Numbered from the stretch's first letter, positions 20,153 through 41,212 are shown. The stretch is DNA of 50,561 nt from an uncultured Gammaproteobacteria bacterium (GCA_947258875.1 CAMYKB010000037.1:1-50561), one strand, 5' to 3'. Notes: generated by a model not told the origin, from the sequence alone. Numbers and translations: made by a program.

Positions 20153-21115
20153 ATGGCCACTGAATTTGAACTGATCGAACGCTTTTTTGCCGCGCATATT
20201 GAAGATCCGGCTGTGCGCACAGGTATTGGTGATGACGCCGCGGTTATTAGTCCTCCGCCAGGTATGGATCTGGTTATTACCACCGATACCCTGGTCGAGG
20301 GTGTGCATTTTCCGCAGCAAAGTCCGCCGCATACGATAGGCCACAAGGCGTTGGCCGTTAACCTCAGTGATCTGGCTTCAATGGGGGCACAACCCAAATG
20401 GGTTACCTTGGCTTTGACCCTGCCCAGCGCCGATGAATCCTGGTTGGCGGCTTTCAGTGAGGGTTTTTTACGGCTCGCTGCTGAGCATGAAGTTGCGTTA
20501 GTTGGCGGCGATACGACCACCGGGCCATTGAGTATTACGGTGCAGGCGATAGGCGTGTTGCCTACTGGGACGGCTATAACCCGTGATGGCGCCAATGATG
20601 GAGATGCCATCTATATGACTGGGCATCCGGGGGACGCTGGATTCGCGCTGGCCGCCATGCAGGGCCGCTATCCCGTGACTGGAGACTTGTTTGAGCGCTG
20701 CCGGCAGCGCCTCGAGCAGCCGATTCCCCGTATCGCTGCAGGTAAGGCATTGCGGGGTCTGGCTAGCGCCGCAATCGATATCTCAGATGGGTTGCTATCC
20801 GATTTGGGGCATCTATTGCAGGTCAGCAGGGTGGGGGCGGAGATTAAGCTTGAATCCTTGCCACTTTCCGATTGCCTCATCGGAGCAATGGAGGGCCGGA
20901 TCGATTGGCTAATACCGCTGACGGCTGGTGATGATTATGAGTTGCTGTTCACGATATCCTGTGACAAATGCGCTGAACTCGGAAATTTAGATCCAGGATG
21001 CCCTGTCACGCGTATTGGTACGGTGACAGCATCGCCCGGATTGCGGTGCACCCACGATGGGCAATCTGTTGCACTGCCGCAAAGCCTGGGATATGAGCAT
21101 TTCGCAGATGACTGA
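20153..21115 (+). CDS. thiL: Thiamine-monophosphate kinase
   Basis: ThiL phosphorylates TMP to thiamine pyrophosphate in the cytosol. The ATG at 20153 (MATEFELIERFF) matches the E. coli N-terminus and gives 320 aa. An ATG at 20126 overlapping the nusB stop (TGATG) would add nine residues and is plausible for coupling. Conserved features are GIGDDAAV, ITTDTLVEGVHF, KALAVNLSDLASMGA, VGGDTTTGPLSITV, AAIDISDGLLSDLGHLL and TAGDDYELLFT, the acidic Mg/ATP-binding network of the PurM/ThiL fold. Confidence 0.95.
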   Translation: MATEFELIERFFAAHIEDPAVRTGIGDDAAVISPPPGMDLVITTDTLVEGVHFPQQSPPHTIGHKALAVNLSDLASMGAQPKWVTLALTLPSADESWLAAFSEGFLRLAAEHEVALVGGDTTTGPLSITVQAIGVLPTGTAITRDGANDGDAIYMTGHPGDAGFALAAMQGRYPVTGDLFERCRQRLEQPIPRIAAGKALRGLASAAIDISDGLLSDLGHLLQVSRVGAEIKLESLPLSDCLIGAMEGRIDWLIPLTAGDDYELLFTISCDKCAELGNLDPGCPVTRIGTVTASPGLRCTHDGQSVALPQSLGYEHFADD

Positions 21116-21617
21116 TAAGGATATTAGGGAAAAGAGTCCTCGAATGAAGGACTTATTAACGAACCCGGTGCAATTTCTGGCCTTCGGTTTTGGTTCCGGC
21201 CTGGCTCCTGTGGCGCCGGGGACCTTCGGGACATTGGCTGCTGTGCCGGTCTATTTGCTAATACAGCAGCTGCCTTGGCCGCTTTATCTGTCGTTTACAG
21301 TAGTTGTCTCTCTTGCCGGTATCTGGATTTGCGGTGCCGCATCGCGGCAGCTCGGTGTGCACGATCACGGTGGCATCGTGTGGGATGAAATCGCGGGTTT
21401 TCTGATCACTATGGCGGCTGCGCCACCCGGTTGGCTGTGGGTGGCCATTGGGTTTTTGTTCTTCAGGTTTTTCGATGTTCTCAAGCCTTGGCCGATAGGC
21501 TGGCTCGATGATCACCTGCAGGGCGGGCTGGGCATCATGCTGGATGACGTGGTTGCCGGACTGTTTGGCATGATTTCAATCTGGCTGGTGCACTATACTG
21601 TGTTGAATTATTTTTAA
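21108..21617 (+). CDS. pgpA: Phosphatidylglycerophosphatase A
   Basis: This inner-membrane phosphatase converts phosphatidylglycerophosphate to phosphatidylglycerol. The ATG at 21108 overlaps thiL by 8 bp and gives 169 aa with the same distance to FGFGSGLAPVAPGT as in E. coli PgpA (172 aa); ATGs at 21057 and 21093 are longer options. Signature segments are GSGLAPVAPGTFGTLAAVP, VHDHGGIVWDEIAGFLIT, FFRFFDVLKPWPIGWLD and GGLGIMLDDVVAGL, with several hydrophobic helices. It is the last gene of the rib-nusB-thiL-pgpA run. Confidence 0.95.
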   Translation: MTDKDIREKSPRMKDLLTNPVQFLAFGFGSGLAPVAPGTFGTLAAVPVYLLIQQLPWPLYLSFTVVVSLAGIWICGAASRQLGVHDHGGIVWDEIAGFLITMAAAPPGWLWVAIGFLFFRFFDVLKPWPIGWLDDHLQGGLGIMLDDVVAGLFGMISIWLVHYTVLNYF

Positions 21618-21742
21618 AAAACTGTCATCTGGCTAAGTGAGTATTCGTAAACAATATGTTATTCAATAAGATAAATAATATTCCGCATGTGTATTTCTAG
21701 TTATAAAAGTATACGATATGACTCTGGTTGCTGTATCTTTCA

Positions 21743-21785
21743 GCGTCACCGTCGCCAGGTGATGCAAGGCTAGCTGCAAGCTGGT
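21743..21785 (+). promoter_or_regulatory. Two adjacent hairpins in the leader of the kinase/PilT cluster
   Basis: GCGTCACC (21743-21750) pairs with GGTGATGC (21758-21765): eight pairs including one G-U, 7-nt loop. After three bases GCTAGCT (21769-21775) pairs with AGCTGGT (21779-21785): seven pairs with two wobbles, 3-nt loop. A strong ribosome site (CTGGGGG) and the ATG at 21805 follow. There is no T-tract, so a terminator is unlikely. The sequence does not match the c-di-GMP-I riboswitch consensus I know. It may be a cis-acting RNA element or a protein-binding leader. The 120 bp upstream are AT-rich, as expected of a promoter, but no clear hexamer pair stands out. Confidence 0.45.
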
Positions 21786-21804
21786 AATTATTCTGGGGGA
21801 ATGA

Positions 21805-22275
21805 ATGAACAGTAATCCACTGCGCGTCTCTAAAACACAAAAAGAGGTCTCGCTATGGGTGCATCCTGAGGGGCGTGTAAGTGGTGCAATTTATCTTCGC
21901 GGGGAATCTGCGGAATACGCTAAAGAGCGTGCCAGCGAGGCCTTCAATCAGACCAGCCCCTTTATTGTCTTAAGCTGCATGGGTCCGGATAATACGCGCT
22001 TTTATAGCAAGCGGGGCATTGTACGGATTGAATATGAGGATGCAGATGAGCGACCTGTGACTGAGGGTGTGGCCGAGTTCGGCTGTTCGCTAACCATGAT
22101 GGATGGCTCAACCATTACAGGTACTATTATCGAAGTGCTGAAACCTGAAAGTGCGCGGTTGTATGATTATCTCAATATCACCGAGCACAGGTTCATCAAG
22201 ATACACCTGCAAAATAATGAAATATGTTTGATTAACAAAGCCTATATTGTGCGTGTTACGCCTGTTTCGGTTTAG
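21805..22275 (+). CDS. Small beta-rich protein with two tandem copies of one domain; function unknown
   Basis: This is a 156-aa cytosolic protein (no signal peptide or membrane segment). The two halves align with each other. About 14-75: VSLWVHPEGRVSGAIY ... PFIVLSC ... YSKRGIVRIE. About 92-153: CSLTMMDGSTITGTII ... RFIKIHL ... INKAYIVRVT. In each, a strand pair around a Gly-x-Ile/Val-x-Gly turn is followed by an SA-containing helix-like stretch, a hydrophobic strand and a final K-x-x-IVR strand. SARLYDYLN in the second copy recalls the small DUF6812-type domain, a memory-based resemblance I cannot verify. It is the first gene of the kinase/PilT cluster, preceded by a structured leader and a strong ribosome site. 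It may be a regulatory or adaptor subunit. Confidence 0.7.
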   Translation: MNSNPLRVSKTQKEVSLWVHPEGRVSGAIYLRGESAEYAKERASEAFNQTSPFIVLSCMGPDNTRFYSKRGIVRIEYEDADERPVTEGVAEFGCSLTMMDGSTITGTIIEVLKPESARLYDYLNITEHRFIKIHLQNNEICLINKAYIVRVTPVSV

Positions 22276-22317
22276 ACGATTTCAATGATCCAATTTGATT
22301 AATGATTCTATAAGATA

Positions 22318-24693
22318 ATGTTGGGCGTATTTGACAGCTTTAAGGCAGATAAAATAATCAGTCAGATTATTGCGTCTGGCGATACTTCCAGCCCTTCCAG
22401 TCAACAAAAGATTCAGAAGCTGAAAGGCATTGCCAAATCCTCCATACCCAAAATTATGGAGCGCCTCAATACCACCAGCCTTGAAGAAAGTGAGCTTGTT
22501 ATTGATCTCCTCAGTAAACTGGTTGATCGACCAACATTGCAGATTTTCTACAAGGGCCTTGCTCATCAGGACTCGAAGGTTGTCAGCGGTATCGTCAAGG
22601 TGCTGGGGAAGGCGCATCACATCGATCCAAACAAATTACTTGAGTTGTTCGATGATCCGGAGGTATCGAAACCGGCAATCTTGCAGGTGCTTTCCGACCA
22701 CCAGGAGTTCCTCAATGGTGAGATGCTGCTACGTTATGCATTTAAGCTCGAGCACAATGATCAATCTGTGTTGTTCAGGATCCTCAACGAGGTTGCCGAT
22801 GAGAAATTGATTCCTTCACTCATCAGCCGCGCCGACGCAAAGGACCCTATTATGCGCGCTCGATTGGCTGAGGTGCTCTCAAAATTCCAGGTACCGCAAG
22901 CGCAAGCTGCTTTGCAGAAAATGCTTAATGATACCAGTAAGTCAGTGCGCCTTGCTGCCCTGGAAGGGTTGTCAAAAATGGATGCCAGCGTTGACATTGA
23001 GCAATTGTGCAAGTTGATCACCGATCCTGATATGAAGATTCAGAATAAGGCGATCGATGCCATTGTTAAGCTCAACCATCCAGATACGGTGAAGTACCTG
23101 ATTGAACCGTTACGCGCGGAAGAAGAACATCCCAGACGCGCTGCTGTAGAAGTGTTGAATGGTATTGCCAATCCTAATGCTGTAAAAGATCTGTTGTTTG
23201 CCATCAAGGACAGCGACTGGTGGGTCCGTAGCAGAGCGGCTGACGCATTGGGTAAGATCGGTGGTAAACGGGTTGTCGATTCCGTGATCGAGTTGATCAA
23301 GGATGATGATGAGTTCGTGCGCCGCACTGCTATCGAAATCATCAATGCCACCAAGGATCAACGTACCTACGACGCTTTAACTGATGCGCTCAATGATTCC
23401 GACTGGTGGGTGCGCGAGCGAGCAATTGATGGTTTGGCGGCGCTGGGCGATAAAAGGGCATCACCTGTACTGGTTAAGATGCTGCAGCAAGACGATGCCA
23501 GCAATACCATCGCTGGCGTGCTAATGCGTGCATTTATAGAACTGGATGCCAAGAGTGCGATAAAGCCGATCATTGCCTACCTGGATAAGGCCAATGAGAG
23601 CGTCAAGAAAGAGGCCATCCAGGCATTGGGCAGCCTTGCAGACCAGACGCACGCCAATCTGGTTAAGGGTGCAATTGATAAGTATACAAAAGATACAGAA
23701 TCAGAAATCCAAGAGGTAGCCAACAGTGTTATCCGCAAAGTGGAAGCACTGGAATCGACCGCATCAGGTGTGCGTGAACGTATCGCTGGCGTGGCACCGG
23801 GAAGTGCCGCGGCCAATGCGGGTGCAGCACCGGTCAAAGGTGAATTTGATGATTTCGATCCGGCACGCATGAAGCCGGGTGACGTACTTGCCGGACGTTA
23901 CCGATTTATAAAGATGGTTGGTCGTGGTGCATTTGGTGCTGTCTATCTAATGGAAGACAATATGGTCAACGAGGAGTTGATCATCAAATTCCTTAATCCG
24001 TCAGTGGCATCCGATGAAAGTATAATCAAGCGCTTTATTTATGAGTTGAGATTTGCGCGCAAGGTCACTCATAAAAATGTCATTCGTATCTATGACATGT
24101 TGAGATTCGGGGAATCAAGCGCGATATCCATGGAGTATTTCCCCAGCCATACATTAGGTGGCGAAATACGTGGCGGCAAGGCGATGCAGGTTGAGAAGGC
24201 TCTTGCAATCCTTAAGGATATCTGTGCTGGCATGGATGCGGCACACAGTGCCAGCGTAGTGCACCGCGATCTCAAACCCAGTAATATCCTGATTAACGAT
24301 GCGGGCCTGGTTAAGGTGGTGGATTTCGGCGTTGCCTCAGCTACCCAACAAATGGATACTAAGCTGACAAAGACAGGTTTGCTGGTGGGTACACCGACCT
24401 ATATGGCACCTGAGCAGGTGCTAGGTAAAAAAATCGATCACAGAACCGATATTTATAGTCTTGGTGTTATTATGTATGAAATGCTTACGGGCAAGCCGCC
24501 ATACAGTGGGGGTGACAGTATGGCCATTATGTATCAGCATGTTCAAGGCAAGGCTACACCGGCGATTGAAATAAATTCTGAAATACCCGCCACACTGAGT
24601 GCAATGATTATGAAAGCGATGGCGGTCGATCCGGAAAAACGTTTCCAAACGATGAAAGAACTGGGTGACCGGCTCGCTGCATTTTTAGCCTGA
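22318..24693 (+). CDS. HEAT-repeat protein fused to a Ser/Thr protein kinase
   Basis: This is a 791-aa cytosolic protein. Residues about 60-490 are a solenoid of HEAT/PBS-lyase-type helical repeats; recurring units such as DSDWWVRSRAADALGKIG and DSDWWVRERAIDGLAALG are visible. After an Ala/Gly-rich linker, a complete Hanks-type kinase runs from about 526 to 790: glycine loop GRGAFGAV, Lys557 (LIIKFL), catalytic HRDLKPSN (His649, Asp651), DFG with Asp669, and GTPTYMAPEQ (697-699). All catalytic residues are present, so it should be active. No membrane segment or PASTA domain. The repeats probably dock targets or the neighbouring ATPases. The FHA domain encoded three genes downstream is a natural reader of its phosphothreonine products. 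Confidence 0.93.
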   Translation: MLGVFDSFKADKIISQIIASGDTSSPSSQQKIQKLKGIAKSSIPKIMERLNTTSLEESELVIDLLSKLVDRPTLQIFYKGLAHQDSKVVSGIVKVLGKAHHIDPNKLLELFDDPEVSKPAILQVLSDHQEFLNGEMLLRYAFKLEHNDQSVLFRILNEVADEKLIPSLISRADAKDPIMRARLAEVLSKFQVPQAQAALQKMLNDTSKSVRLAALEGLSKMDASVDIEQLCKLITDPDMKIQNKAIDAIVKLNHPDTVKYLIEPLRAEEEHPRRAAVEVLNGIANPNAVKDLLFAIKDSDWWVRSRAADALGKIGGKRVVDSVIELIKDDDEFVRRTAIEIINATKDQRTYDALTDALNDSDWWVRERAIDGLAALGDKRASPVLVKMLQQDDASNTIAGVLMRAFIELDAKSAIKPIIAYLDKANESVKKEAIQALGSLADQTHANLVKGAIDKYTKDTESEIQEVANSVIRKVEALESTASGVRERIAGVAPGSAAANAGAAPVKGEFDDFDPARMKPGDVLAGRYRFIKMVGRGAFGAVYLMEDNMVNEELIIKFLNPSVASDESIIKRFIYELRFARKVTHKNVIRIYDMLRFGESSAISMEYFPSHTLGGEIRGGKAMQVEKALAILKDICAGMDAAHSASVVHRDLKPSNILINDAGLVKVVDFGVASATQQMDTKLTKTGLLVGTPTYMAPEQVLGKKIDHRTDIYSLGVIMYEMLTGKPPYSGGDSMAIMYQHVQGKATPAIEINSEIPATLSAMIMKAMAVDPEKRFQTMKELGDRLAAFLA

Positions 24694-24712
24694 GTCGCTG
24701 GATGTAACTTTA

Positions 24713-25807
24713 ATGCCAAGAATAGACGCGTTTTTGAAGCTGGGGCTCGAGCAGGACTGCTCAGATGTGCATTTGGCGGTTAATGTACCCCCGATGCTAC
24801 GTATGCATGGCGAGCTCATGCCGATCAAATTCCGTGCGCTCGGTGATGCTGAACTGGAAGGATACATTTTCGAGATACTCACGGAATCACAGATCGAACG
24901 CTTCAAGGCGGGCCATGATCTTGATTTTTCCTATATGTCAGAAGGTGTTGGCCGCTTCAGGGTAAATTTATTCCGTAAATCCACCGGCATGGGTGCTGTA
25001 CTGCGACATATTCCAACTCGCATCCCGACCTTCGAAGCGCTGAATCTGCCCCCCGTCATCAAGACCATGGCAGATTATAAACAGGGGATGGTGCTGGTGA
25101 CGGGCTCAACCGGTACAGGTAAATCAACAACGCTGGCTTCATTGATTGACTACATCAATTCAACCAAGCAGGAAAATATCATCACCCTTGAGGATCCGAT
25201 TGAATTCATCCATCCCAGTAAGCGTTCACAGGTTATACAACGTGAAGTCGGGACGCATCTGGCTACTTTTTCTGATGGCCTGCGCTCCGCGTTACGCGAG
25301 GATCCGGATATTGTGCTGGTGGGAGAGATGCGTGATGCAGACACCATTAGTATGGCTATGCTGGCAGCTGAAACTGGCCATTTAGTATTCGGCACCTTGC
25401 ATACGACCTCAGCCGTAAAATCGATTGATCGTATTCTCGATGCGCTGCCTGCGGATCAGCGAGATCAGGGTAAGATTTTCCTGGCGCAGAACCTGCATGC
25501 CGTGGTTACGCAGCAACTGGTAAAAACAGCTGATGGTAGAGGGCGCCGAGCCATAGTAGAAGTGTTACTTATGACCAATGCAATTTCAAACCTGATTATG
25601 AACGACAAGACATTTCAGGTGTCCAGTCAGATGCAAACCAATCGTGCTAAAGGTATGCAGTTGATGGACCAGGCATTGCTCGAAGCGGTGCAGAACAAAG
25701 TGGTTGATCCGGATGACGCCTATGTGCATGCAACGGAAAAGAAATTATTTCAACGTTATGTAACCAACCCAGATTTGCTGCCTAAGGTTAGTCTTGCGGG
25801 TGGTTGA
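24713..25807 (+). CDS. Divergent PilT-family retraction ATPase
   Basis: This 364-aa hexameric secretion-superfamily ATPase is similar along its whole length to PilT, the cytosolic motor that depolymerises type IV pili. It has an N-terminal PAS-like N2E domain (SDVHLAVNVPPMLRMHGEL), Walker A GSTGTGKSTT with Lys137, an Asp box TLEDPIEFIH, Walker B DPDIVLVGEMRD and a His box HLVFGTLHTTSA. The retraction motif AIRNLIRE of canonical PilT is changed to AISNLIMN, and the C-terminus is longer. No pilus assembly genes are adjacent, unlike the usual pilT-pilU locus. I call it PilT-like, not PilT. It is 19 bp after the kinase gene. Confidence 0.9.
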   Translation: MPRIDAFLKLGLEQDCSDVHLAVNVPPMLRMHGELMPIKFRALGDAELEGYIFEILTESQIERFKAGHDLDFSYMSEGVGRFRVNLFRKSTGMGAVLRHIPTRIPTFEALNLPPVIKTMADYKQGMVLVTGSTGTGKSTTLASLIDYINSTKQENIITLEDPIEFIHPSKRSQVIQREVGTHLATFSDGLRSALREDPDIVLVGEMRDADTISMAMLAAETGHLVFGTLHTTSAVKSIDRILDALPADQRDQGKIFLAQNLHAVVTQQLVKTADGRGRRAIVEVLLMTNAISNLIMNDKTFQVSSQMQTNRAKGMQLMDQALLEAVQNKVVDPDDAYVHATEKKLFQRYVTNPDLLPKVSLAGG

Positions 25808-25825
25808 TACATGAGTATTTGACAG

Positions 25826-26893
25826 ATGTCTGAACCCATTGCTCTGGGCCTTTGCCTGGAAATGATGATCGCCCAGGAAGGCTCTGACCTCCATTACCTG
25901 TCGGGCGATCCGCCCAGGATCAGGCAGAATGGCGACCTGATCGTTCTGGATGAAAATCGACTGACTACCAAACTGGTGGAAGATGAGCTGCTCCAGATTA
26001 TGCAGCCGCGCACGCAGAATGATTTTAAGCGTGAAGACAGTGCCGATTTTGCCTACCTCAAGGAAGGGCTGGCGAGGTTTCGTGTTAATGTTTTCAGGCA
26101 TTTGAATGGTGTTGGTGCGGTATTCAGAGCAATCCCGACCCAGGCATCTGGTCTCGAAACACTTAGTTTGCCGAGCATTCTGGGTAACCTGTGTGCACAA
26201 AAGAAAGGTATGATCCTGGTCACCGGTAAAACCGGTTCTGGTAAGTCGACAACACTTGCGGCAATGGTGGATACGATTAACCAGACTCGTAAGGGCCATA
26301 TACTGACGATCGAAGATCCCATTGAATTTGTGCATGAACGTAATAATTGTTTGATTAGCCAGCGTGAAGTCGGTGATCACACGAGGTCATTTGCAAGCGC
26401 ATTACATTCAGCATTGCGCGAAGACCCGGATGTGATTCTGGTGGGTGAGTTGCGCGATCTGGAAACCATGAGTCTGGCGGTCACTGCTGCCGAGACGGGT
26501 ATACTGGTGTTGGGTACCCTGCATACCAATAGTGCTGCAGCAACCGTCGACCGCATTATCAATACCTTTCCGGTACAGAAACAACCCCATATCCGCACCA
26601 TGCTCTCCACCTCATTGCGTGGCGTTGTTTCCCAAACCCTCCTTAAGAGGATAGATAACAAGGGGCGCGTACCTGCGGTCGAAATCCTTGTGAATAATTC
26701 GGCTGTTGCTAACACCATTCGTGAAGGCAAGACCGATCAGATTGAATCGATTATGCAGGGTGGTTCATTGTCCGGTATGCAAACAATGGATAACTCCTTG
26801 CGCAAATTGCTCGATCAAAGGTTAATTAGCGGTGATGATGCGTATGAACAATCGAACAACAAGTCCGACTTTGAAAAGTATAAAACCAGGTGA
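25826..26893 (+). CDS. PilT/PilU-family ATPase
   Basis: This 355-aa paralogue of the preceding protein starts 18 bp after it. Motifs: N2E segment SDLHYLSGDPPRIRQNGDL, Walker A GKTGSGKSTT with Lys140, Asp box TIEDPIEFVHE, Walker B DPDVILVGELRD, His box ILVLGTLHTNSA, and AVANTIREGKTDQIES, closer to the canonical AIRNLIRE motif than the first copy. PilT and PilU work together in canonical systems, so these two may form a paired motor. It overlaps the following protease gene by 4 bp (GTGA), implying coupling. Confidence 0.9.
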   Translation: MSEPIALGLCLEMMIAQEGSDLHYLSGDPPRIRQNGDLIVLDENRLTTKLVEDELLQIMQPRTQNDFKREDSADFAYLKEGLARFRVNVFRHLNGVGAVFRAIPTQASGLETLSLPSILGNLCAQKKGMILVTGKTGSGKSTTLAAMVDTINQTRKGHILTIEDPIEFVHERNNCLISQREVGDHTRSFASALHSALREDPDVILVGELRDLETMSLAVTAAETGILVLGTLHTNSAAATVDRIINTFPVQKQPHIRTMLSTSLRGVVSQTLLKRIDNKGRVPAVEILVNNSAVANTIREGKTDQIESIMQGGSLSGMQTMDNSLRKLLDQRLISGDDAYEQSNNKSDFEKYKTR

Positions 26894-27558
26894 TCACTGA
26901 CCTGCGATCGATGCGATGTGCGCTTTACCTGTTGACTGGTTTATTGTTGTGTCAGACCGGGCTTGCATTCGCAATAGATGACATTCTAGTTGTCGGCCTT
27001 TTCAAGAACAAGGCCGTTGTGCTCATTGATAACAAGCGGCGGCTATTATCGATCGGAGAAGTTTCTCCTGAGGGCGTTCAGTTAATAAGGGCTGATAGCC
27101 GTAGTGCAACACTGGAAATACAAGGTCAAAGACGCAAGTATATGTTGGGTAGCCGTGTCAAAACCACATATGCTAATCCGCAATATGCCAAGACCACGAT
27201 ATACCGGAACACTCAGGGTATGTACGTGACGTCAGGCTCTATTAATGGCCAGGTAGTTACTTTTCTGGTCGATACCGGTGCTTCTGCTATTGCCATGAAC
27301 AAAAATACGGCCAGGCGCCTGGCCATTGATTATGAAAAAAAAGAAGCATTGACCGTTGTTAATACTGCATCTGGCATGTCTCGGGCGTATCAGGTGACTC
27401 TCAAGCAGGTGAAACTGGGTGCGCTGAGTAAACGAAATGTGACGGCGCTGGTGATTGATGGGGATGCGCCGCAGCAGGTATTGCTTGGCATGTCGTTCCT
27501 GGGAGGGCTGGATATCAAGAATACGGGACAGATGATGGTCCTGGAGAAGAAATATTAG
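26890..27558 (+). CDS. Exported retropepsin-like aspartic protease with an N-terminal GspC/PilP-like region
   Basis: This 222-aa protein begins at a GTG overlapping the upstream stop. The N-terminus (CALYLLTGLLLCQTGLAFA) is a signal peptide or anchor, so the protein acts in the periplasm. Residues about 29-85 (ILVVGLFKNKAVVLIDNKRRLLSIGEVSPEGVQLI...) resemble the homology region of GspC/PilP: a V-x-G start, I-D-x-x-R-R and an I-G-E step. Residues about 115-222 are a single-chain retropepsin fold of the clan AA type, with the catalytic FLVDTGAS (Asp128) and the LLGMSFLGGL flap/hydrophobic signature near the end. Such proteins should dimerise to be active. Substrate unknown; association with PilT-like motors suggests envelope machinery. 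Confidence 0.85.
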   Translation: MITDLRSMRCALYLLTGLLLCQTGLAFAIDDILVVGLFKNKAVVLIDNKRRLLSIGEVSPEGVQLIRADSRSATLEIQGQRRKYMLGSRVKTTYANPQYAKTTIYRNTQGMYVTSGSINGQVVTFLVDTGASAIAMNKNTARRLAIDYEKKEALTVVNTASGMSRAYQVTLKQVKLGALSKRNVTALVIDGDAPQQVLLGMSFLGGLDIKNTGQMMVLEKKY

Positions 27559-27660
27559 ACTGGAACTGATTTCCATGGCTAAAGTTGTATGCCGTAGGGT
27601 GGTTGCCAGTTCAATTCTATAAGTCCATCATGACGCAGGGCTTATTACCATGATGCATTA

Positions 27661-28551
27661 ATGTCTCAAAGCAACCAAAATTCTGCTGTTGCATTTGCCG
27701 ATATTACAGATAGCACGGATCTATATGAGTGCTACGGTGATGCCGCGGCGCAACGTGCCATAACGGCGTGCCTCAAACTGATGTCTGATAATGTGCGTAG
27801 CCATGGTGGCCACGTAGTGAGGACTGTTGGGGATGAGATAATGTGCCAGTTTGCTGAGCTGGATGCGGCTGTCAACAGCTTGGTAGACCTTAATAAAGTG
27901 CTCGCCAGTGAACTCTTCAATGATGATATTCGGCTGAAAATCAAATCAGGTCTCCATTATGGGCCGGTTATTGAAGAACAGGGCGATCTTTATGGCGATG
28001 CTGTAAATGTGGCGGCGCGGATGCGCTCATTGGCAAAAGCCGAGCAGATTCTGATTACTCAAGGTGTTGCCGAGCGACTTTCAGGAGACTTGGGACAACA
28101 CATCAGGAAAATTGATAAAACCAGTATCAAAGGCAAGCAGGATCCGATTGATGTATTTGAGGTGCTATGGGAGAAGGACGATATTACGCGCATCATGTCG
28201 AGTACGATCATCTCTGATATGTTGGCGACACTCAAATTAACGCTAACAATTGGCGATCAGAAAATCGAGTTGGCGCCTGATGCGCCCATTTTCATACTCG
28301 GCCGGGCAAGCCAGTGTGATCTGGTCATCAATTCTCCAGGAGCTTCGCGTATTCATGCGCGTATTGAATACCGGCGTGGCAAATTCATGCTTATGGATCA
28401 GAGCATAAACGGCACTTTTATTCGTACGGCCGACGGTAAAGAAGTGTTCATCAAGCGTGAGGAATTACCCTTATGGGACAAGGGAATAATAAGCCTGGGT
28501 AGCGCCATCTCCGATAACAGCCCGCATATCCTTAATTACGAGTGCGAATGA
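27661..28551 (+). CDS. Class III adenylate/guanylate cyclase fused to an FHA domain
   Basis: This is a 296-aa cytosolic protein. The cyclase domain (about 7-170) has both metal-binding aspartates, Asp14 (FADITDST) and Asp58 (VGDEIM), and the transition-state pair Asn116 and Arg120 in DLYGDAVNVAARM. Asp109 of the base-recognition pair is present, but the partner that is Lys in adenylate cyclases is Arg54 (VVRTVGD), so ATP or GTP preference is uncertain. The FHA domain (about 190-280) keeps GR (214-215), SRxH (229-232) and NGT (250-252), the phosphothreonine-binding set. It is separated from the protease gene by about 100 bp and lies with the kinase cluster. Phosphorylation-dependent control of cyclic nucleotide synthesis is the obvious hypothesis. 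Confidence 0.92.
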   Translation: MSQSNQNSAVAFADITDSTDLYECYGDAAAQRAITACLKLMSDNVRSHGGHVVRTVGDEIMCQFAELDAAVNSLVDLNKVLASELFNDDIRLKIKSGLHYGPVIEEQGDLYGDAVNVAARMRSLAKAEQILITQGVAERLSGDLGQHIRKIDKTSIKGKQDPIDVFEVLWEKDDITRIMSSTIISDMLATLKLTLTIGDQKIELAPDAPIFILGRASQCDLVINSPGASRIHARIEYRRGKFMLMDQSINGTFIRTADGKEVFIKREELPLWDKGIISLGSAISDNSPHILNYECE

Positions 28552-28684: not shown

Positions 28685-30100
28685 ATGTCTGTTCGTACAC
28701 GATTCGCACCTAGCCCGACCGGCTATTTACATGTTGGCGGTGCGCGTACCGCATTATTTTCCTGGTTATATGCCCGCAAATCGCAAGGTAAGTTTATCCT
28801 GCGTATCGAGGATACTGACCGGGAACGTTCCACCCAGGAATCCATCGATGCCATCCTTGATGGCATGGCCTGGTTGGGACTGCAATATGATGAAGGCCCG
28901 TTCTATCAAACTCAGCGCATGGAACGCTACCGTGAAGTCATCCAGAAGTTACTCGATGATGGCAATGCCTACTATTGCTATTGCACCAGGGAAGAACTTG
29001 ATGAATTGCGGCAACAACAGCTCGCGAATAAGCAGAAACCGCGTTATGACGGGCGTTATCGTGATCATGACGGCCCTCCGCGCGCGGGTGTAGACCCGGT
29101 AATACGTTTCAGGAATCCGCTAGAAGGTGAGGTAGTAGTTCATGACCTGATTCGGGGCAATATCGTTATCCAGAACAGTGAACTCGATGATCTCATCATT
29201 GCACGTTCTGACGGTACACCGACCTACAATCTTACGGTAGTGGTCGATGATATGGATATGGGGATTACCCATGTGATTCGGGGCGATGATCATATCAATA
29301 ACACTCCTCGGCAGATCAATATCCTTCGTGCGCTGGGCGCAGAGTCACCCCAATATGCACACGTACCGATGATTCTGGGTAGCGACGGTAAACGTCTCTC
29401 CAAACGCCATGGCGCTGTGGGTGTCATGCAATACCGTGATGACGGGTTTTTGCCTGAGGCGTTGCTGAATTATCTGGTGCGTCTGGGCTGGTCATATGGC
29501 GACCAGGAGGTTTTCACGCTGGATGAGATGATCGAGCTATTTGACATCAAAGATGTCAATTTCTCGGCCTCAACATTTAATACCGAAAAATTGTCGTGGC
29601 TGAACCAGCATTACATCAAGACCTTGGATGCAAACCATATCGCTGAGCATTTACACTGGCATATGCAGCAATGTGGTATTGCGCTGGATAATGGTCCGCC
29701 ATTGATTGATCTGGTAGAGGCGTATAGGGAACGTGCCAAGACACTCAAGGAGATGGCCAGCAGCAGTCGCTTTTTCTATGAGGAGTTTGAAGATTATGAC
29801 GAGAAAGCGGCCCGCAAGAATCTGAAACCGGCAAGTCTCGATGTCCTGATCGCCTTACGCGATGGCTTTGCAGCGGTGGCTGGCCCTGACTGGTCTGGAG
29901 CAGCGGCCCACGATGTAGTGACACGAGCGGCTGAAGAAAATGATCTGAAACTCGGAAAAGTGGCACAACCGCTGCGCGTCGCAGTATCCGGTACTGCTGT
30001 TTCACCGCCGATAGACATAACCTTGCAACTGCTTGGCAGAGAACGCACGTTAGCGCGTATTGACAGGGCGATCGCAAAAATCACACAAGATAACCCCTGA
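28685..30100 (+). CDS. gltX: Glutamyl-tRNA synthetase
   Basis: This 471-aa class I aminoacyl-tRNA synthetase charges tRNA-Glu. The HIGH-type motif is [17 protein letters not shown] near the N-terminus and the KMSKS-type motif is [12 protein letters not shown] around residue 240. [42 protein letters not shown] is the conserved active-site region. The length equals that of E. coli GltX (471 aa). The anticodon-binding helical domain fills the C-terminal third. An aminoacyl-tRNA synthetase and tRNA-Ala are neighbours but do not form a cognate pair. Confidence 0.98.
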
Positions 30101-30307: not shown

Positions 30308-31054
30308 TTAGCGTTTCAGGCGCCCACGCTGTTTGAGTGTGACGCCGCCACGGCGGTCAACCCGGCCAAGCAACTGTAGCCCATTGCGCACATCAGCCGG
30401 TGTTCGTGCGGTTGGTTCAAGGCGTAGGTTGGTTTGATACTGCCAGCCCTTATCCAGGTCAATTTTGCCCTTGAGGAGTAAATCACCGCCACTATTGCTG
30501 AGCTGCAGCTCGGCCTTTTCCTGCGGGTGATCAAGTTCCGCTTTGACATCACCCAGTGCCAGAGTGAGCGGCGCTGTCAGTCGCGCCTGATTTAACAGGA
30601 TAGTGCCCGCAATATCCTGGATGCCGTCTTCGCCAACATCCAGGGTATCGATGTCGGCACTGAGGGTGCCCGACAGGTTTACTGTATAGGCTTCCAGGTA
30701 GGGCGACAGGGCGGTTATGTCGCCCCTCAGCTGCAATCCCTTTATCGTTACGCCCTGGTTCTTGCGTAAGGATACCCGGGCTTTGCCTTGTAGCTCAGGG
30801 CGTTGGGTAGCAAGTTTCAGCGACACGCGTCCCCACAATAGGGGTAGTGGGTTCGTACGCCACCTGACATCACCAAGCGCGAGTTTGTCGACCATGACAT
30901 TTGCCGCCATGCCTCTCCAGACACTTCCTTCGAGTTGCTGGTAGTAGACTGTGGCCGGCAGGTAACGACTTGCAAGGTGCGCAGGCGCCGTGCCGATTAA
31001 CAGGATTGCATAAAGTGGTAGTCCGATCAGGACATAGCGTAACGCGGTTTTCAT
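30308..31054 (-). CDS. gspN: Type II secretion system protein GspN
   Basis: This 248-aa bitopic inner-membrane protein has one N-terminal helix (YVLIGLPLYAILLIGTAP) followed by a periplasmic beta-rich region (QLEGSVWRGMAANVMV, LPLLWGRVSLKLATQRPELQGKARVS, LQLRGDITALSPYLEAY). GspN is an accessory, not universally conserved T2SS component. Its start codon overlaps the gspM stop (31054). It is the distal gene of the gspG-N run, convergent with the tRNA-Ala gene. Confidence 0.9.
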   Translation of the reverse strand: MKTALRYVLIGLPLYAILLIGTAPAHLASRYLPATVYYQQLEGSVWRGMAANVMVDKLALGDVRWRTNPLPLLWGRVSLKLATQRPELQGKARVSLRKNQGVTIKGLQLRGDITALSPYLEAYTVNLSGTLSADIDTLDVGEDGIQDIAGTILLNQARLTAPLTLALGDVKAELDHPQEKAELQLSNSGGDLLLKGKIDLDKGWQYQTNLRLEPTARTPADVRNGLQLLGRVDRRGGVTLKQRGRLKR

Positions 31055-31536
31055 CAGCGTTGCAGGCTCAGGCGTGAACTGACAAGCCCGGATTCACCAG
31101 TTTTGTCAATGCTGCTGCGGCTGACGCTGATACCGTGTTGCCGCTGCAGTTGATCCAGCCAGCGCATCAGGCTATCGAAGTTTGCATTTTCAATCCAGAG
31201 TTTTGCGCCATTGTTACCGTCAGGCTCCATGCGTTGAATCGCAGCTCGCAGCTTAGCCTGCTTAGCACTGCTTTCGATGGTAGCCAGCATGGAACGATTA
31301 CTGTTCCTGGTCGTTGTAGCGGCCGGTGAGCGCCTCAATCGCTTTACCTTATGGCTGGATTGTTGCATCCATACCAGCAACTCTTTATCTGCTTTAATGT
31401 TATTGGTCAAAAGCTTGTGTTTGCCCGCGAAGGGTTCCAAAACAAGCAGATAGATCAATATCAACAGCAAGGCGCTGGCGCCAGCAATTGTTATCATGCG
31501 TTCACGCGCTGCCAGCGAATCCCACCAGGCCTTCAT
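31054..31536 (-). CDS. gspM: Type II secretion system protein GspM
   Basis: This is a 160-aa bitopic protein: a short cytosolic MKAWWDSLAARER, one transmembrane helix (MITIAGASALLLILIYLLVLEPF) and a periplasmic ferredoxin-like domain (about 75-160). It partners GspL in the inner-membrane platform. MxxWWxSLxxRER is the family hallmark. It overlaps gspL by 4 bp. Confidence 0.93.
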   Translation of the reverse strand: MKAWWDSLAARERMITIAGASALLLILIYLLVLEPFAGKHKLLTNNIKADKELLVWMQQSSHKVKRLRRSPAATTTRNSNRSMLATIESSAKQAKLRAAIQRMEPDGNNGAKLWIENANFDSLMRWLDQLQRQHGISVSRSSIDKTGESGLVSSRLSLQR

Positions 31537-32642
31537 CCCTTGCCTCCATGGATCAGTAAACGAGCACTGACGTTGTCGCCACGCGTCTCGGCGGATTGGA
31601 TACTGGCTGTAAAACCCGCCTTCTCGATTTGCCGTTTGATGGTTTCGAGAGATTCCAGATCGCTGGCTTGCAGTTTGATCTCCAGGCGGCCATCACGGAA
31701 ACCAAGGTTGTTGATCTGTGTGTTCTCAGCCTTGGCAATCGCCTGTGCACCTGTATCGAGTAGTGTGATGAAGTTGTTGCCATCACCAGCCCGCAGGTTT
31801 TCATGTTGCTGTGAGAGTTGTCGAACATCCATGACCTTGACAGCGATCATCACGCTCAGCCAGATTCCCAGCAATACTGCCGCCACGCGCCAGGGTTTTA
31901 GTAATTTGCTGACCGGGCTGCGACTGAGATAGGTGCCTTGCAGCAGGTTCATTGCTGCTTTGCCTGTATGCCCCAACGTCAATACATCCATTGCGCTACA
32001 GTCATCTGTCGCCAATGTCAGCGTGACCGGTAATTGCAGCTGCGGACCAGAGGTTGCGCTGCAGTCATAGACCTTGATCGACACAGGTGGTTGTTCGCAC
32101 TCACTCAATTGTTGCTCTAGTGCCAGCTGCAGATTATCTGTTTCGATGGCTAGGCCGTGAAAGTCATCTGTGCGTAACACGGCGCGTTGTGATTCGATCA
32201 GCAATGTCCAGGTGTCCGGCTGCCAAGGTAGCATGAGACTCTCGGGAACAATGCTCTGTGCATTGATACCCGCCACTGACAGCTCCTGCAATAACTCCTG
32301 CATACGCGCATGTTCGATGACTGCCACTGTGTGGCGGTTGTCACCGAGGGATTCGCCAATTGAGAAATGCAAGTTATCGATATCATCGGCGAGTTCGTCT
32401 TCGAGTGCGTAGGGAACCGCTTTGGCAAGTTGCTGACGGTTGCGTGCCTTGATGCTGACTTCGGTGATCAGCAAGAATTCATCGGGGACCATAGCCACCA
32501 CACGCCGTTGACGGGCCAGGGGCACAGCAGCAGTCAGCTCGCCACGCTCCGTTTGTGTAACGGAATCGTTAGCCGCACTGATGATCCGCCATTCAGCCTG
32601 GCCACCTCCCGTTGCGGGCATTCTTATGACGAGTGTTTCCAT
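31533..32642 (-). CDS. gspL: Type II secretion system protein GspL
   Basis: This 369-aa bitopic protein recruits the GspE ATPase to the membrane. The cytosolic actin-like domain fills about residues 1-240 (VPDEFLLITEVSIKARNRQQLAKAVPYALEDELADDIDNLHF is characteristic). A single transmembrane helix follows (WRVAAVLLGIWLSVMIAVKVMDV), then a periplasmic ferredoxin-like domain (INNLGFRDGRLEIKLQASDLESLETIKRQIEKAGF). It lies 18 bp after gspK and overlaps gspM by 4 bp. Confidence 0.95.
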   Translation of the reverse strand: METLVIRMPATGGGQAEWRIISAANDSVTQTERGELTAAVPLARQRRVVAMVPDEFLLITEVSIKARNRQQLAKAVPYALEDELADDIDNLHFSIGESLGDNRHTVAVIEHARMQELLQELSVAGINAQSIVPESLMLPWQPDTWTLLIESQRAVLRTDDFHGLAIETDNLQLALEQQLSECEQPPVSIKVYDCSATSGPQLQLPVTLTLATDDCSAMDVLTLGHTGKAAMNLLQGTYLSRSPVSKLLKPWRVAAVLLGIWLSVMIAVKVMDVRQLSQQHENLRAGDGNNFITLLDTGAQAIAKAENTQINNLGFRDGRLEIKLQASDLESLETIKRQIEKAGFTASIQSAETRGDNVSARLLIHGGKG

Positions 32643-32660
32643 ATAGTCGGTGGTTTGGTG

Positions 32661-33587
32661 TTATTGGGCTTGGTGTCGTTGCAAGGTTATTATCATACCG
32701 TTTTGTTGGCGGTGCAGTACACTGTTGAGGGAAACTGAAGTACTGCCTATCTGTATTTCGCTATAGAGCAAAAAATAGTCACTCCTCACATCCAACTCCT
32801 GGGAATCGATGGTTATTCCCTTGAGCTCCGGGTGTTGCAGAAATTCGTCGAGGTTTTCAAAAGGTTCGACTTCGCGTGCCTCGATGAGCGCATCCGCCTT
32901 TTGTTGGTCGATTTCAGGTGAAAGGCTGGTGATAAGTTCGGCAGCCGCTGTGTTGACATTGATCGATGTGCGCACAGGCAGGGTACAGAGATAGGGAGTC
33001 AGTTTCAGATAGGTTTCCTGATCAAAGCCCTTGATGAGGCGTAGTTCACTGATATCTGACATCAGGCGGTTGGCGGTGAGGTAGGGGAGTTCCAGTCCCA
33101 TATAGTGATCATCTTCAGCGCCATCAGGTGGCTGTGCATCGATATCCTGATCGATCCAGTCGATCACGGCTTGTGCCAGCCCGGGATCCAGGTCGAGGTG
33201 CTTAAGCAGGCCCTGAAAGCGTGTCATACTAGCCGCATCGAGCTTACCATCGATGATCAGGTTATTAATATTAAAACGCCCCTGTAGATCTGAGAGTTGG
33301 CCCTGTATGCCGCCACCGGGTAACGGGATCGGGGGCAGGGTGTAGGCCCAGGCCTCGTCCAGGCTGTCGATCTTGCTCTCCTTGAGGTCTTCCTTCAGGA
33401 TCGACTTCGCCCAAATCTCGCCACCCTCTGCATACTGCCAGGCCTGGTCGCCATCCAGCAGACTGGCAGTACGGCGCGTATCGTAGAATTGCTGTCGCGC
33501 CATCGATACCGCGATAATGGTGGCTAATGCAACAATCAACAGCACAGTAATCAGGGCAACCCCTTGGTTGTGATGACAGCGGTTCAT
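32661..33587 (-). CDS. gspK: Type II secretion minor pseudopilin GspK
   Basis: This 308-aa minor pseudopilin forms the tip complex with GspI and GspJ. The class III leader ends NQG, and the hydrophobic helix VALITVLLIVALATIIAVSMARQQFYD follows. As in other GspK proteins, the Glu at +5 found in other pseudopilins is absent (Thr here), and the globular domain is large and alpha-helical (DLQGRFNINNL; VIDWIDQDIDAQPPDGAEDDHY; SINVNTAAAELI; YFLLYSEIQIG). It overlaps gspJ by 4 bp. Confidence 0.96.
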   Translation of the reverse strand: MNRCHHNQGVALITVLLIVALATIIAVSMARQQFYDTRRTASLLDGDQAWQYAEGGEIWAKSILKEDLKESKIDSLDEAWAYTLPPIPLPGGGIQGQLSDLQGRFNINNLIIDGKLDAASMTRFQGLLKHLDLDPGLAQAVIDWIDQDIDAQPPDGAEDDHYMGLELPYLTANRLMSDISELRLIKGFDQETYLKLTPYLCTLPVRTSINVNTAAAELITSLSPEIDQQKADALIEAREVEPFENLDEFLQHPELKGITIDSQELDVRSDYFLLYSEIQIGSTSVSLNSVLHRQQNGMIITLQRHQAQ

Positions 33588-34216
33588 TGCAACGTGGGTA
33601 TGACGCGGCGGACCTCTCCCCAGGGCTCGGCCTCAAGGGTGAATTCCACAGCCTTGGGCAGAGGGGACAGGTTTGCCTGGTTGCTATTCTGGGGCGGCCA
33701 GTCGGTCAGCCATTCGTCGTTTTGATCCAGAAAACGCAATTGAAAGTGATCGACATCGGTGAGCAGCGGTGAAACCAGGCTGTTTTCAACCGTATAGCCA
33801 TCTAGTGTCGGCCATACCAGGCGTATCAGTGTGTTTTCTTCATTGATATCGTAGGCCACACGTTGCAATGTGCTGCGTGTCAGTCCCGCGGGATTGCGCC
33901 AGCCACCCCGCGTGAGACTCAACAAGGGTTGAGCCGCGGTTTGCAGCGCGTTCTCTATATCGCCGTATTCATTTCTCACTGGCCTGTCGACCAGTTGCGT
34001 AATGTCACGCTCAAGATAACGCAGGGAAAGTTGCAGTTCGCGCAAGCGTTCAGCCTGCTGTTTGTTGTGTTCATGGCTGATTAATACACTATTAAGACCG
34101 CCATAGGCCATTACTCCAAGGATGGCAAACACTGCCATTGCGATGAGTATTTCCAGTAATGTGAAACCGTCACTACGAGTTCGTGATTGTGGTTTGAGGT
34201 GCATGTTCAGCATCAT
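33584..34216 (-). CDS. gspJ: Type II secretion minor pseudopilin GspJ
   Basis: This 210-aa minor pseudopilin has the prepilin site SDGFTLLEILIAMAVFAILGVMAY, cleaved after Gly with Glu at +5. The soluble beta domain contains LSLRYLERDITQLVDRPVRNEYGD and LTRGGWRNPAGLTRSTLQRVAY, both typical of GspJ. It sits 6 bp after gspI and overlaps gspK by 4 bp. Confidence 0.96.
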   Translation of the reverse strand: MMLNMHLKPQSRTRSDGFTLLEILIAMAVFAILGVMAYGGLNSVLISHEHNKQQAERLRELQLSLRYLERDITQLVDRPVRNEYGDIENALQTAAQPLLSLTRGGWRNPAGLTRSTLQRVAYDINEENTLIRLVWPTLDGYTVENSLVSPLLTDVDHFQLRFLDQNDEWLTDWPPQNSNQANLSPLPKAVEFTLEAEPWGEVRRVIPTLQ

Positions 34217-34222
34217 TGCGAG

Positions 34223-34609
34223 TTAGTTGCCGATAAAGCCGGTCAAGGTTACAAGGCCCGGTAAGTCATCGTCCTTGTGCAAACGCACAGTGATTTCGAC
34301 GCGATGTATACTTTTGTTTGCGGTTTCTTCGACCTTGGTTTGCCAGTACCATTCAGTCCGAGCCATCTCCTCCGAGCCCGAACTGAAACCGACTGCGGGT
34401 GTTGATTTCTGTAGTTGCAGCTCGGTCATCTGATTCAATGCTACCCAGTGCGCAAAGGTTTTGTCACGTAGATAGCTGGCATTTGCAGAGAGGTCTGCGG
34501 TGGTCTTGATGATCGCAGAGAGCGCGACCGCGACGATCGCCAGTGCCACTAGCACTTCAAGTAAGGTGAAGCCGTTATAATTTTGCAGTGCTGGACGCAG
34601 GGTCTTCAT
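34223..34609 (-). CDS. gspI: Type II secretion minor pseudopilin GspI
   Basis: This 128-aa minor pseudopilin has the prepilin site YNGFTLLEVLVALAIVAVALSAIIKTT (Glu +5) followed by LRDKTFAHWVALNQMTELQL, the GspI-typical region. It initiates tip assembly with GspJ/K. It overlaps gspH by 4 bp. Confidence 0.96.
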   Translation of the reverse strand: MKTLRPALQNYNGFTLLEVLVALAIVAVALSAIIKTTADLSANASYLRDKTFAHWVALNQMTELQLQKSTPAVGFSSGSEEMARTEWYWQTKVEETANKSIHRVEITVRLHKDDDLPGLVTLTGFIGN

Positions 34610-35103
34610 GGCGCAGTTTGCATTGTCAGATTGCCGATCGCATCAGCCGTGATAATAATTTCCGTATCGTCATCATCATGCAAACTCATTTCGAAGGGAG
34701 TGAATTCGCCTCCCGAGAGAATGTAAATCTGCGGGTCCTCGGGTTGATTGACAGGTAAATCCACCTTTAGGCCTTCGAGGTGGAGTTGCGGTGTGAACTG
34801 GTCAGATAACTCACGCGTGCGAAACGCCTGATCTGCCGTGATAACCTGCCATTCATTATCAACCAGCTGGTAATAACCAAATCCGGTTTGCCAGAAGGCG
34901 AGTGCATAATCCTGGCCATTGAAGACCGCTTCTTCTTTGGCAAGGGTCGTCAGGGCGAGTATTTGTTTTGCGGCCTGTTCAAGTTTATGTGACTGTGTAT
35001 TGCCGATGGCGAGCACCGCAAAGCCGGTCATGATGGCGATGATCACCAACACCGCCAATAACTCGAGCAGGGTAAAACCCCTTGCACGATTCCGGCGTGG
35101 CAT
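34606..35103 (-). CDS. gspH: Type II secretion minor pseudopilin GspH
   Basis: This 165-aa minor pseudopilin has the prepilin site ARGFTLLELLAVLVIIAIMTGFAVLAIG (Glu +5). The following beta-rich head (NGQDYALAFWQTGFGYYQLVDNEWQV) matches GspH. It links the pseudopilus tip to the GspG shaft. It lies 5 bp after gspG. Confidence 0.95.
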   Translation of the reverse strand: MPRRNRARGFTLLELLAVLVIIAIMTGFAVLAIGNTQSHKLEQAAKQILALTTLAKEEAVFNGQDYALAFWQTGFGYYQLVDNEWQVITADQAFRTRELSDQFTPQLHLEGLKVDLPVNQPEDPQIYILSGGEFTPFEMSLHDDDDTEIIITADAIGNLTMQTAP

Positions 35104-35108
35104 TGTGA

Positions 35109-35576
35109 TTACTCAAGCCCCCAGCTTGTGATATCGGAATTTGCCGCTTCGCCACCCACCTGGTTGTCTGCACCCAGCGAGTAAAGATCGTACTTGCCAT
35201 GTTCGCCCGGGCTCAGGTACTGGTAATCATTGCCCCAGGGGTCCTTGGGCATGCGTGCAATGTATCCGTCTTCCTTCCAGTTGCGTGGCTCAGGAGGAAT
35301 ACCGGGTTTAATGGCGAGGGCTTCTAAGCCTTGCTCGGTGGTAGGGTAATTATAATTGTCCAGCTTGTAGAGATTGAGAGCGCTTTCCAGCGCGCGTATA
35401 TCCTGCTTGGCCTTGACGATACGCGCATCATCCGGACGACTCATCACGCGTGGCACCACGATGGCCGCCAGAATGGAGAGGATTACCACCACCACAATCA
35501 CCTCGATCAGGGTGAAGCCGGCTGCAGCTTTGCTGGATAGTGCTGCGTTGTGTTTGTTATCAGAGTATGGGTTCAT
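35109..35576 (-). CDS. gspG: Type II secretion major pseudopilin GspG
   Basis: This 155-aa major pseudopilin forms the pseudopilus fibre. The prepilin site is [24 protein letters not shown] (Glu +5). The C-terminal head has the GspG calcium loop and signature: [48 protein letters not shown], then DITSW. It heads the G-N half of the T2SS locus and is divergent, across 41 bp, from the rhombosortase gene, so it needs its own promoter or read-through from gspF. Confidence 0.97.
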
Positions 35577-35617
35577 GGTCTGTTTATCTCGTTAAAAATA
35601 AGGTTCAATAGTATCAA

Positions 35618-36232
35618 ATGAAAATAACTTCACGCATGGCTCCGTTGTTAGAGCGCTGGTGGCCAGTATTGTTCGTTATTATTGTGGCCGGCCTGCTGCA
35701 GGCACTGATGCCAGACAGTGGGCAGGCCTTGCGTTTCGAACGTGGCAGCATCCAATCTGGCCAACTGTGGCGGGTGATTACGGGGCATCTCATACACCTC
35801 GGCTGGGGACATTACCTGATGAATATGCTGGGCTTGCTGCTGATCTGCGGGATCTATCGCCATCGGCTCACCGCGGGTATTACCATTACTTGGTTGCTGG
35901 TCTGCGCAGTCGTTGTGAGTGGCGGTTTGTTGTTGTTCAATCCGAATGTGCATTGGTATGTGGGCCTCTCTGGCGTACTGCATGGCATCCTGGTGGCAGC
36001 AGCCATCAGTGACCTGAAAACACATCGCTGGGAGAGTCTGGTAATACTTGGCTTCACAGGTGCAAAATTGCTGTGGGAGCAGTTGCAGGGTTCGGTACCA
36101 GGGAGTGCGTCGGTAGCCGGTGGCCAGGTGGTGGTAGATGCACATTTATATGGGATGCTCGGCGGTCTCTTGGTGGTGATATTGACGGTGATTGGGAAAA
36201 GGCTAAAATTGCCGTGGGTTATGGGTTTATAA
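35618..36232 (+). CDS. rrtA: Rhombosortase (GlyGly-CTERM-processing rhomboid-family intramembrane protease)
   Basis: This is a 204-aa integral membrane protein with about six helices. Rhombosortase hallmarks are W51-R-x-x-TGHLIHLGWGHYLMN (H57, H60, H65, N69), the catalytic serine in GLSGVLHG (Ser118) and the catalytic His in DAHLYGM (His176). Rhombosortases cleave the GlyGly-CTERM tail of proteins exported by type II secretion, releasing or modifying them at the surface. No GlyGly-CTERM tail was seen in the proteins of this window, so substrates lie elsewhere. It is transcribed against the gsp genes, inserted between gspF and gspG. Confidence 0.9.
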   Translation: MKITSRMAPLLERWWPVLFVIIVAGLLQALMPDSGQALRFERGSIQSGQLWRVITGHLIHLGWGHYLMNMLGLLLICGIYRHRLTAGITITWLLVCAVVVSGGLLLFNPNVHWYVGLSGVLHGILVAAAISDLKTHRWESLVILGFTGAKLLWEQLQGSVPGSASVAGGQVVVDAHLYGMLGGLLVVILTVIGKRLKLPWVMGL

Positions 36233-36244
36233 GTGTAAACCCAT
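36221..36244. repeat. 9-bp hairpin overlapping the rhombosortase stop
   Basis: ATGGGTTTA (36221-36229) and TAAACCCAT (36236-36244) form a perfect 9-bp stem with a 6-nt loop, in the convergent gap between rrtA and gspF. The stem is AT-rich and neither strand has a T-run directly after it, so it may slow but not cleanly terminate transcription. Confidence 0.45.
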
Positions 36245-36303
36245 ATAAAAACAATGATATACAATATATTTATTATGTAAATGATTACCTAGTGTCAAGT
36301 GCA

Positions 36304-37518: not shown

Positions 37519-37571
37519 AAGCGATTATAGGGGTCAGGCAAATGTTGGCGTAGTGGGCAACAACACAGGCC

Positions 37572-41056: not shown

Positions 41057-41212
41057 TCTGGATACGGTCCTTCTTGGATAAGGTTATTGGTCTCTAGCCC
41101 TGCTTCCGTGGATAGATTGTACCGGCGCTTATGAGTTAATAATCAACTATATATCAAATTGTTATACCACTTATCTGAAATAGCTATGATGATTGTACAG
41201 GGTCATAGTGTT
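41057..41212 (-). other. 156-bp gap between gspC and gspD
   Basis: This gap is long for a T2SS operon, where neighbours usually touch. On the minus strand it holds AT-rich stretches such as TATAAC and TATATA, about 45-80 bases before the gspD start, compatible with an internal promoter, but no convincing -35/-10 pair. No ORF and no hairpin with a T-tract was found. Confidence 0.35.

Follow-up and report, generated by a model that had tools for sequence, protein, structure and literature searches.

A HEAT-repeat Ser/Thr kinase gene linked to two PilT-class motor genes in gammaproteobacteria: a candidate phospho-regulated pair of accessory motors

The window analyzed here is a 50,561-nucleotide stretch of DNA from an uncultured Gammaproteobacteria bacterium (GCA_947258875.1, CAMYKB010000037.1:1-50561), in which six co-directional genes (g1 to g6, plus strand) lie between pgpA (21057..21617, plus strand) and gltX (28685..30100, plus strand). 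g1 (21805..22275) encodes a small duplicated protein whose C-terminal half matches DUF6812 (Pfam), and g2 (22318..24693) encodes a Ser/Thr kinase with HEAT repeats over residues about 1-480 and a kinase domain over residues 528-779. The next two genes, g3 (24713..25807) and g4 (25826..26893), encode PilT/PilU-family ATPases of two distinct clades, here named PilTa and PilTb; they are followed by a retropepsin-like TIGR02281 aspartic protease (g5, 26890..27558) and a class III nucleotide cyclase fused to an FHA domain (g6, 27661..28551). The intergenic spacings from g1 to g6 are 42, 19, 18, -4, and 102 bp, the negative value being a 4-bp overlap of g4 and g5. An initial annotation of this DNA had described the same six closely spaced genes, and Pfam and NCBIfam profiles agreed with its calls of a HEAT kinase, two PilT-class motors, an aspartic protease, and a cyclase-FHA protein. 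It had further joined all six into one signaling circuit; comparison with related genomes instead split the locus into a core of kinase, PilTa, and PilTb, usually with the DUF6812-like g1 upstream, and a set of local neighbors. Promoter-like sites at the locus were no more numerous than expected by chance, and terminator-like sites were more numerous than in shuffled sequence; such sites do not settle the operon limits.

We examined the linkage of the core genes at 62 loci with kinase homologs, taken from two collections in both of which some species may occur, with gene order read by a codon-usage gene caller. Downstream sequence was sufficient at 51 loci, and PilTa was the next gene after the kinase, on the same strand, at 47 of these, or at 49 when two loci with split kinase open reading frames (ORFs) are counted (L039 and L041, in which broken kinase ORFs are followed by PilTa). 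True separation of kinase from PilTa was seen at L111, and L116 carries a truncated kinase without PilTa. PilTb came next after PilTa at 47 loci, and the gap between kinase and PilTa had a median of 13 bp, with overlaps of 1-4 bp at many loci. The module occupies at least five genomic contexts in many gammaproteobacterial families: it is flanked by mrp and metG in many lineages of metagenome-assembled genomes, by glnE-ilvE in Ectothiorhodospira and others, by pgpA and gltX in the relatives of the window, and by PP2C and FHA genes elsewhere, with a pyrophosphatase-like gene and a convergent cyclase-FHA gene as the flanks at L095. The trio is also present in the cultured strains Ectothiorhodospira haloalkaliphila ATCC 51935 and E. 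marina DSM 241.

Co-occurrence was scored in 369 genomes drawn from the gammaproteobacterial class, with presence thresholds of E ≤ 1e-40 for the kinase and E ≤ 1e-105 for PilTa. The kinase was found in 47 genomes, roughly one in eight; PilTa was present in 45 of these 47 and in none of the 322 kinase-less genomes (Fisher 6e-56, a value that overstates independence, since the sampled genomes share ancestry). Moreover, two genomes (G162 and G365) have retained both the kinase and the PilTa-PilTb pair although the two lie on different contigs. In conjunction with the gene order analysis, these results make it very likely that kinase, PilTa, and PilTb form a functional unit.

Both motors scored well above the curated TIGR01420 cut-off of 319.1 bits (430.0 and 441.5 bits), and the Walker A motif, the Walker B Glu, the Asp box, and the His box were invariant or nearly so among 54 PilTa and 50 PilTb sequences. 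In a tree of 78 motor sequences, whose clades were named by position and motif, PilTa (support 100/100) and PilTb (100/98) each formed a clade apart from canonical PilT (100/100), from PilU, and from a third PilU-like paralog, and a strongly supported split placed both on the same side as PilT. Mean identity to PilT was 50% for PilTb and 45% for PilTa, and that of the two motors to PilU was 35-39%. The AIRNLIRE motif, invariant in canonical PilT (15/15), is intact in neither motor: PilTb retains its IRE-GK part and PilTa has mostly lost it. The second motor had been taken for PilU, an identity that the tree position contradicts, as does the His box, which reads GTLHT in both motors and TLHA in PilU; PilU identity for PilTb was thus rejected. 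Other PilT-family ATPases were found besides the pair in all 11 module-bearing genomes examined, and the window's genome carries three further PilT-family genes, plus pilMNOP, elsewhere. These three are a tandem of PilT, PilU, and a member of the third, PilU-related clade (G000:C8:50521-53832; L049, L050, L052), a clade that also occurs in several relatives.

The kinase has the motifs of a Hanks-type Ser/Thr kinase, with the Lys, HRD, DFG, and APE residues essentially invariant in 54 homologs. Contigs from Desulfobacterota and other deltaproteobacteria (L042-L047) carry relatives of the HEAT or kinase part at 26-37% identity, without a matching PilT neighbor. The upstream partner g1 was present in 36 of the 47 kinase-bearing genomes and in 0 of the 322 others, and its proposed internal duplication was borne out by alignment of its N-terminal and C-terminal halves (hhalign probability 90, E 1.6e-6, 49 columns). 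An AlphaFold model of g1 from three sequences reached a pLDDT of only 36 and was not used.

The g5 protease scored 113.7 bits against TIGR02281 (cut-off 57.95), has the active site DTGAS of a clan AA aspartic protease, and carries an apparent N-terminal signal peptide, as read by eye. A GspC/PilP-like segment had been claimed for it; we found no Pfam match, and hhalign gave a probability below 1 to the GspC and PilP of the same genome, a weak test with single-sequence targets. The single-sequence AlphaFold model (pLDDT 35) was likewise set aside. The protease was present in 130 of the 369 genomes, that is, in 21 of 47 with the kinase versus 109 of 322 without it (Fisher p = 0.19). A TIGR02281 retropepsin recurrently adjoins thiL-pgpA across gammaproteobacteria, including relatives that lack the module there (L172, L179, L181, L182, L184, and L185), and in G185 the protease is near pgpA and the kinase is on another contig. 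We judged the protease to be a bystander outside the module because it shows no association with the kinase and has pgpA as its ancestral neighbor. Judged by gene order, the simplest history would be that the lineage of the window acquired the module at a site flanked by pgpA and the protease.

In g6, the cyclase residues FADIT, VGDE, GDLYGD, and NVAAR, which we take to supply the two metal Asp, the adenine-specifying Asp, and the transition-state Asn and Arg of a class III cyclase, are all there, and the substrate Lys position is an Arg in the window. The GR, SxxH, and NG motifs of its FHA domain were invariant in four homologs. The cyclase-FHA gene was present in 23 of 47 kinase genomes versus 59 of 322 kinase-less genomes (Fisher 1.5e-5, ancestry ignored), so that it is weakly associated with the kinase, and elsewhere it is usually unlinked. 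It adjoins the module at L090, L091, L093, and L095, lies next to gltX in G062 (L199), on a contig from which the module is absent, and lies beside a PP2C-like gene (assigned by eye) in several genomes, including L194, L195, L197, and L200, which lack the kinase module. At L090 (11180-13133) both pilTb and the cyclase-FHA gene are split into two ORFs, suggesting decay or assembly errors. Because its linkage is so variable, we regard the cyclase-FHA protein as an optional, clade-specific partner, a portable part of FHA signaling that was probably recruited in some lineages. The contrast among the partners in their association with the kinase is clear despite the shared ancestry of the genomes. 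Thus, of the six-gene module first envisaged, the linkage and co-occurrence of kinase, PilTa, and PilTb held up, and six genes as one conserved unit were rejected, the protease being unassociated with the kinase and the cyclase-FHA gene mostly unlinked.

The recurrent neighbors of the trio in relatives include further signaling genes. Directly after pilTb, 15 of 50 loci carry a gene for an FHA protein of about 222 aa, with one FHA domain by Pfam and a C-terminal half that, on inspection by eye, resembles FHA. At 9 of 60 loci a PP2C phosphatase gene lies at most three genes upstream, the FHA gene being present at 8 of these 9 as well, and an FHA-GAF-HD-GYP protein is encoded upstream at 6 loci. 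The window itself has the kinase and an FHA fusion and no linked PP2C. The initial proposal that the kinase writes and an FHA domain reads is supported indirectly by these genes, and the relatives lend it better support than the window does.

Beyond gltX, a type II secretion operon starts after 208 bp on the minus strand, convergent with gltX (about 30308..42145); its genes run gspN, M, L, K, J, a GspH-like pseudopilin gene, G, F, E, D, and C, with several pseudopilins encoded, and a tRNA-Ala gene lies between gltX and the operon. The statement that pilin and assembly genes are absent from the vicinity was thus wrong. No gsp gene was found near the module at 40 other loci scanned, and a link between the type II secretion system and the module was rejected because gsp genes are not beside it elsewhere.

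Taken together, we proposed that the core encodes two accessory motors of the PilT class under control by phosphorylation, a reading to which we give a probability of about 55%. The kinase, with its HEAT repeats as a docking or sensing arm, would act together with the accessory ATPases PilTa and PilTb, which may work on the ordinary type IV pilus machine of the cell, whose pil genes and canonical PilT and PilU are encoded elsewhere in the genome. It would most likely phosphorylate threonines of the motors or of a protein on the motors, and regulation of the motors by this kinase through phosphorylation appears probable. The phosphosite might then be bound by an FHA protein, encoded by the separate gene after pilTb in many relatives and here probably represented by the FHA half of g6; we put the role of the FHA protein as reader at even odds, and that of g6 in the window's genome somewhat below them. 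The phosphosite could be reset by a PP2C phosphatase, whose gene is linked to the module in some relatives but unlinked in the window's genome, and the accessory motors would be switched on or off, or exchanged with PilT and PilU. The cyclase, or in relatives the FHA-GAF-HD-GYP protein, might couple the phospho-state to a nucleotide second messenger, so that the FHA reader and the messenger would be variable outputs. The most specific form of this proposal, in which HEAT kinase, FHA reader, and PP2C directly gate dedicated accessory motors that are swapped with PilT and PilU according to phosphorylation state, is offered tentatively, and we would bet against it in that detail.

Several observations weigh against the proposed phospho-regulated motor pair. 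A recognizable g1 is missing from 11 of the 47 kinase genomes, most loci have no directly attached FHA gene, and in the mrp-metG lineages the trio has neither an FHA nor a PP2C gene as neighbor; the co-occurrence statistics are inflated by common descent, as said above. A role of PilTa and PilTb in pilus retraction would follow from family membership, and little of the AIRNLIRE motif is left in PilTa. The kinase could have a different substrate, and the phosphorylation targets, the pairing of reader and target, and the effect on retraction or pili are all putative.

Four other explanations were weighed against this one. A single circuit that leads from the cytosol into the periplasm, where the protease would be its output, would fit the identical order of g2 to g6 in two relatives (L091 and L093) and the g4/g5 overlap; however, the protease is widespread and indifferent to the kinase, sits beside thiL-pgpA without the module, and is on a different contig from the module in G185, and g6 is mostly unlinked elsewhere. 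The protease part is largely refuted, and we consider the circuit as a whole very improbable. Scarcely better is the possibility that the linkage reflects co-transfer or the neutral inertia of an operon of functionally independent genes. Shared ancestry and housekeeping flanks would allow for it, but conservation across many families and several contexts, co-retention of the unlinked genes in G162 and G365, and the complete lack of genomes with PilTa and without the kinase all argue otherwise.

The two remaining explanations keep the core together and change what it acts on, and we regard both as unlikely, to nearly the same degree. Instead of the type IV pilus, the motors and kinase might serve another machine, for example the type II secretion system next to gltX; its operon lies just downstream in the window, and the degenerate AIRNLIRE motif of PilTa makes canonical retraction uncertain. 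Both motors nevertheless group with PilT, the 40 other loci scanned offered no gsp neighbor, and type II secretion systems are not known to use PilT-class ATPases. Alternatively, the module might act on the expression or localization of pili and not on the activity of the motors, perhaps by phosphorylation of an FHA adaptor, in the manner of the archaellum regulatory network, of which ArnA is an FHA protein. Ser/Thr kinases do regulate archaella in Sulfolobus (PMC5300886), and FHA genes recur at module loci; yet the conserved core contains no DNA-binding gene, and the partners conserved with the kinase are the very motors.

In the usual view, ATPase identity, two-component or chemosensory input, and cyclic nucleotides determine type IV pilus retraction. 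Our results suggest that, in bacteria with this module, phosphorylation serves to switch a special pair of pilus motors. With a kinase gene hardly ever found apart from a PilT pair of its own, Ser/Thr phosphorylation of retraction motors would become open to direct test. A search of open-access papers under open licenses for kinase with PilT and FHA or HEAT returned no description of a kinase-PilT module; the parts are all of known families, and their combination as a conserved unit appears to be new. PilTa and PilTb resemble the canonical PilT and PilU of type IVa pili in their TIGR01420 family, their intact Walker A, Walker B, Asp, and His boxes, and their tandem arrangement, but differ in their separate clades, altered AIRNLIRE motif, and co-encoded kinase, and further PilT-family genes are present at other places in these genomes. 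Accessory PilT paralogs outside the main pil cluster are also known as PilT1-PilT4 of Geobacter and PilT2 of Neisseria (PMC5065972, PMC10790696); the available parts of these papers describe no kinase linkage for the Geobacter paralogs, unlike that of PilTa and PilTb, a comparison made by description. In the archaellum regulatory network of Sulfolobus (ArnA, ArnB, ArnC/ArnD, and PP2A), Ser/Thr kinases (ArnC/ArnD) and a phosphatase likewise control a type IV pilus-like machine (PMC5300886); this network is archaeal and acts on regulators of archaellum expression, and the portion of the source available describes no kinase-motor operon for it. The threonine phosphorylation pathway of the type VI secretion system, in which a Ser/Thr kinase, a PP2C phosphatase, and an FHA protein (PpkA, PppA, and Fha1) serve an envelope machine (PMC5995506), resembles the module in this set of components, the PP2C being linked in only some relatives and not in the window, but the module differs in its HEAT-repeat kinase and PilT-class motors. 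No type VI secretion genes were recognized among the neighbors read, although no search was aimed at them. On the best reading, the module is analogous to this pathway rather than a member of it.

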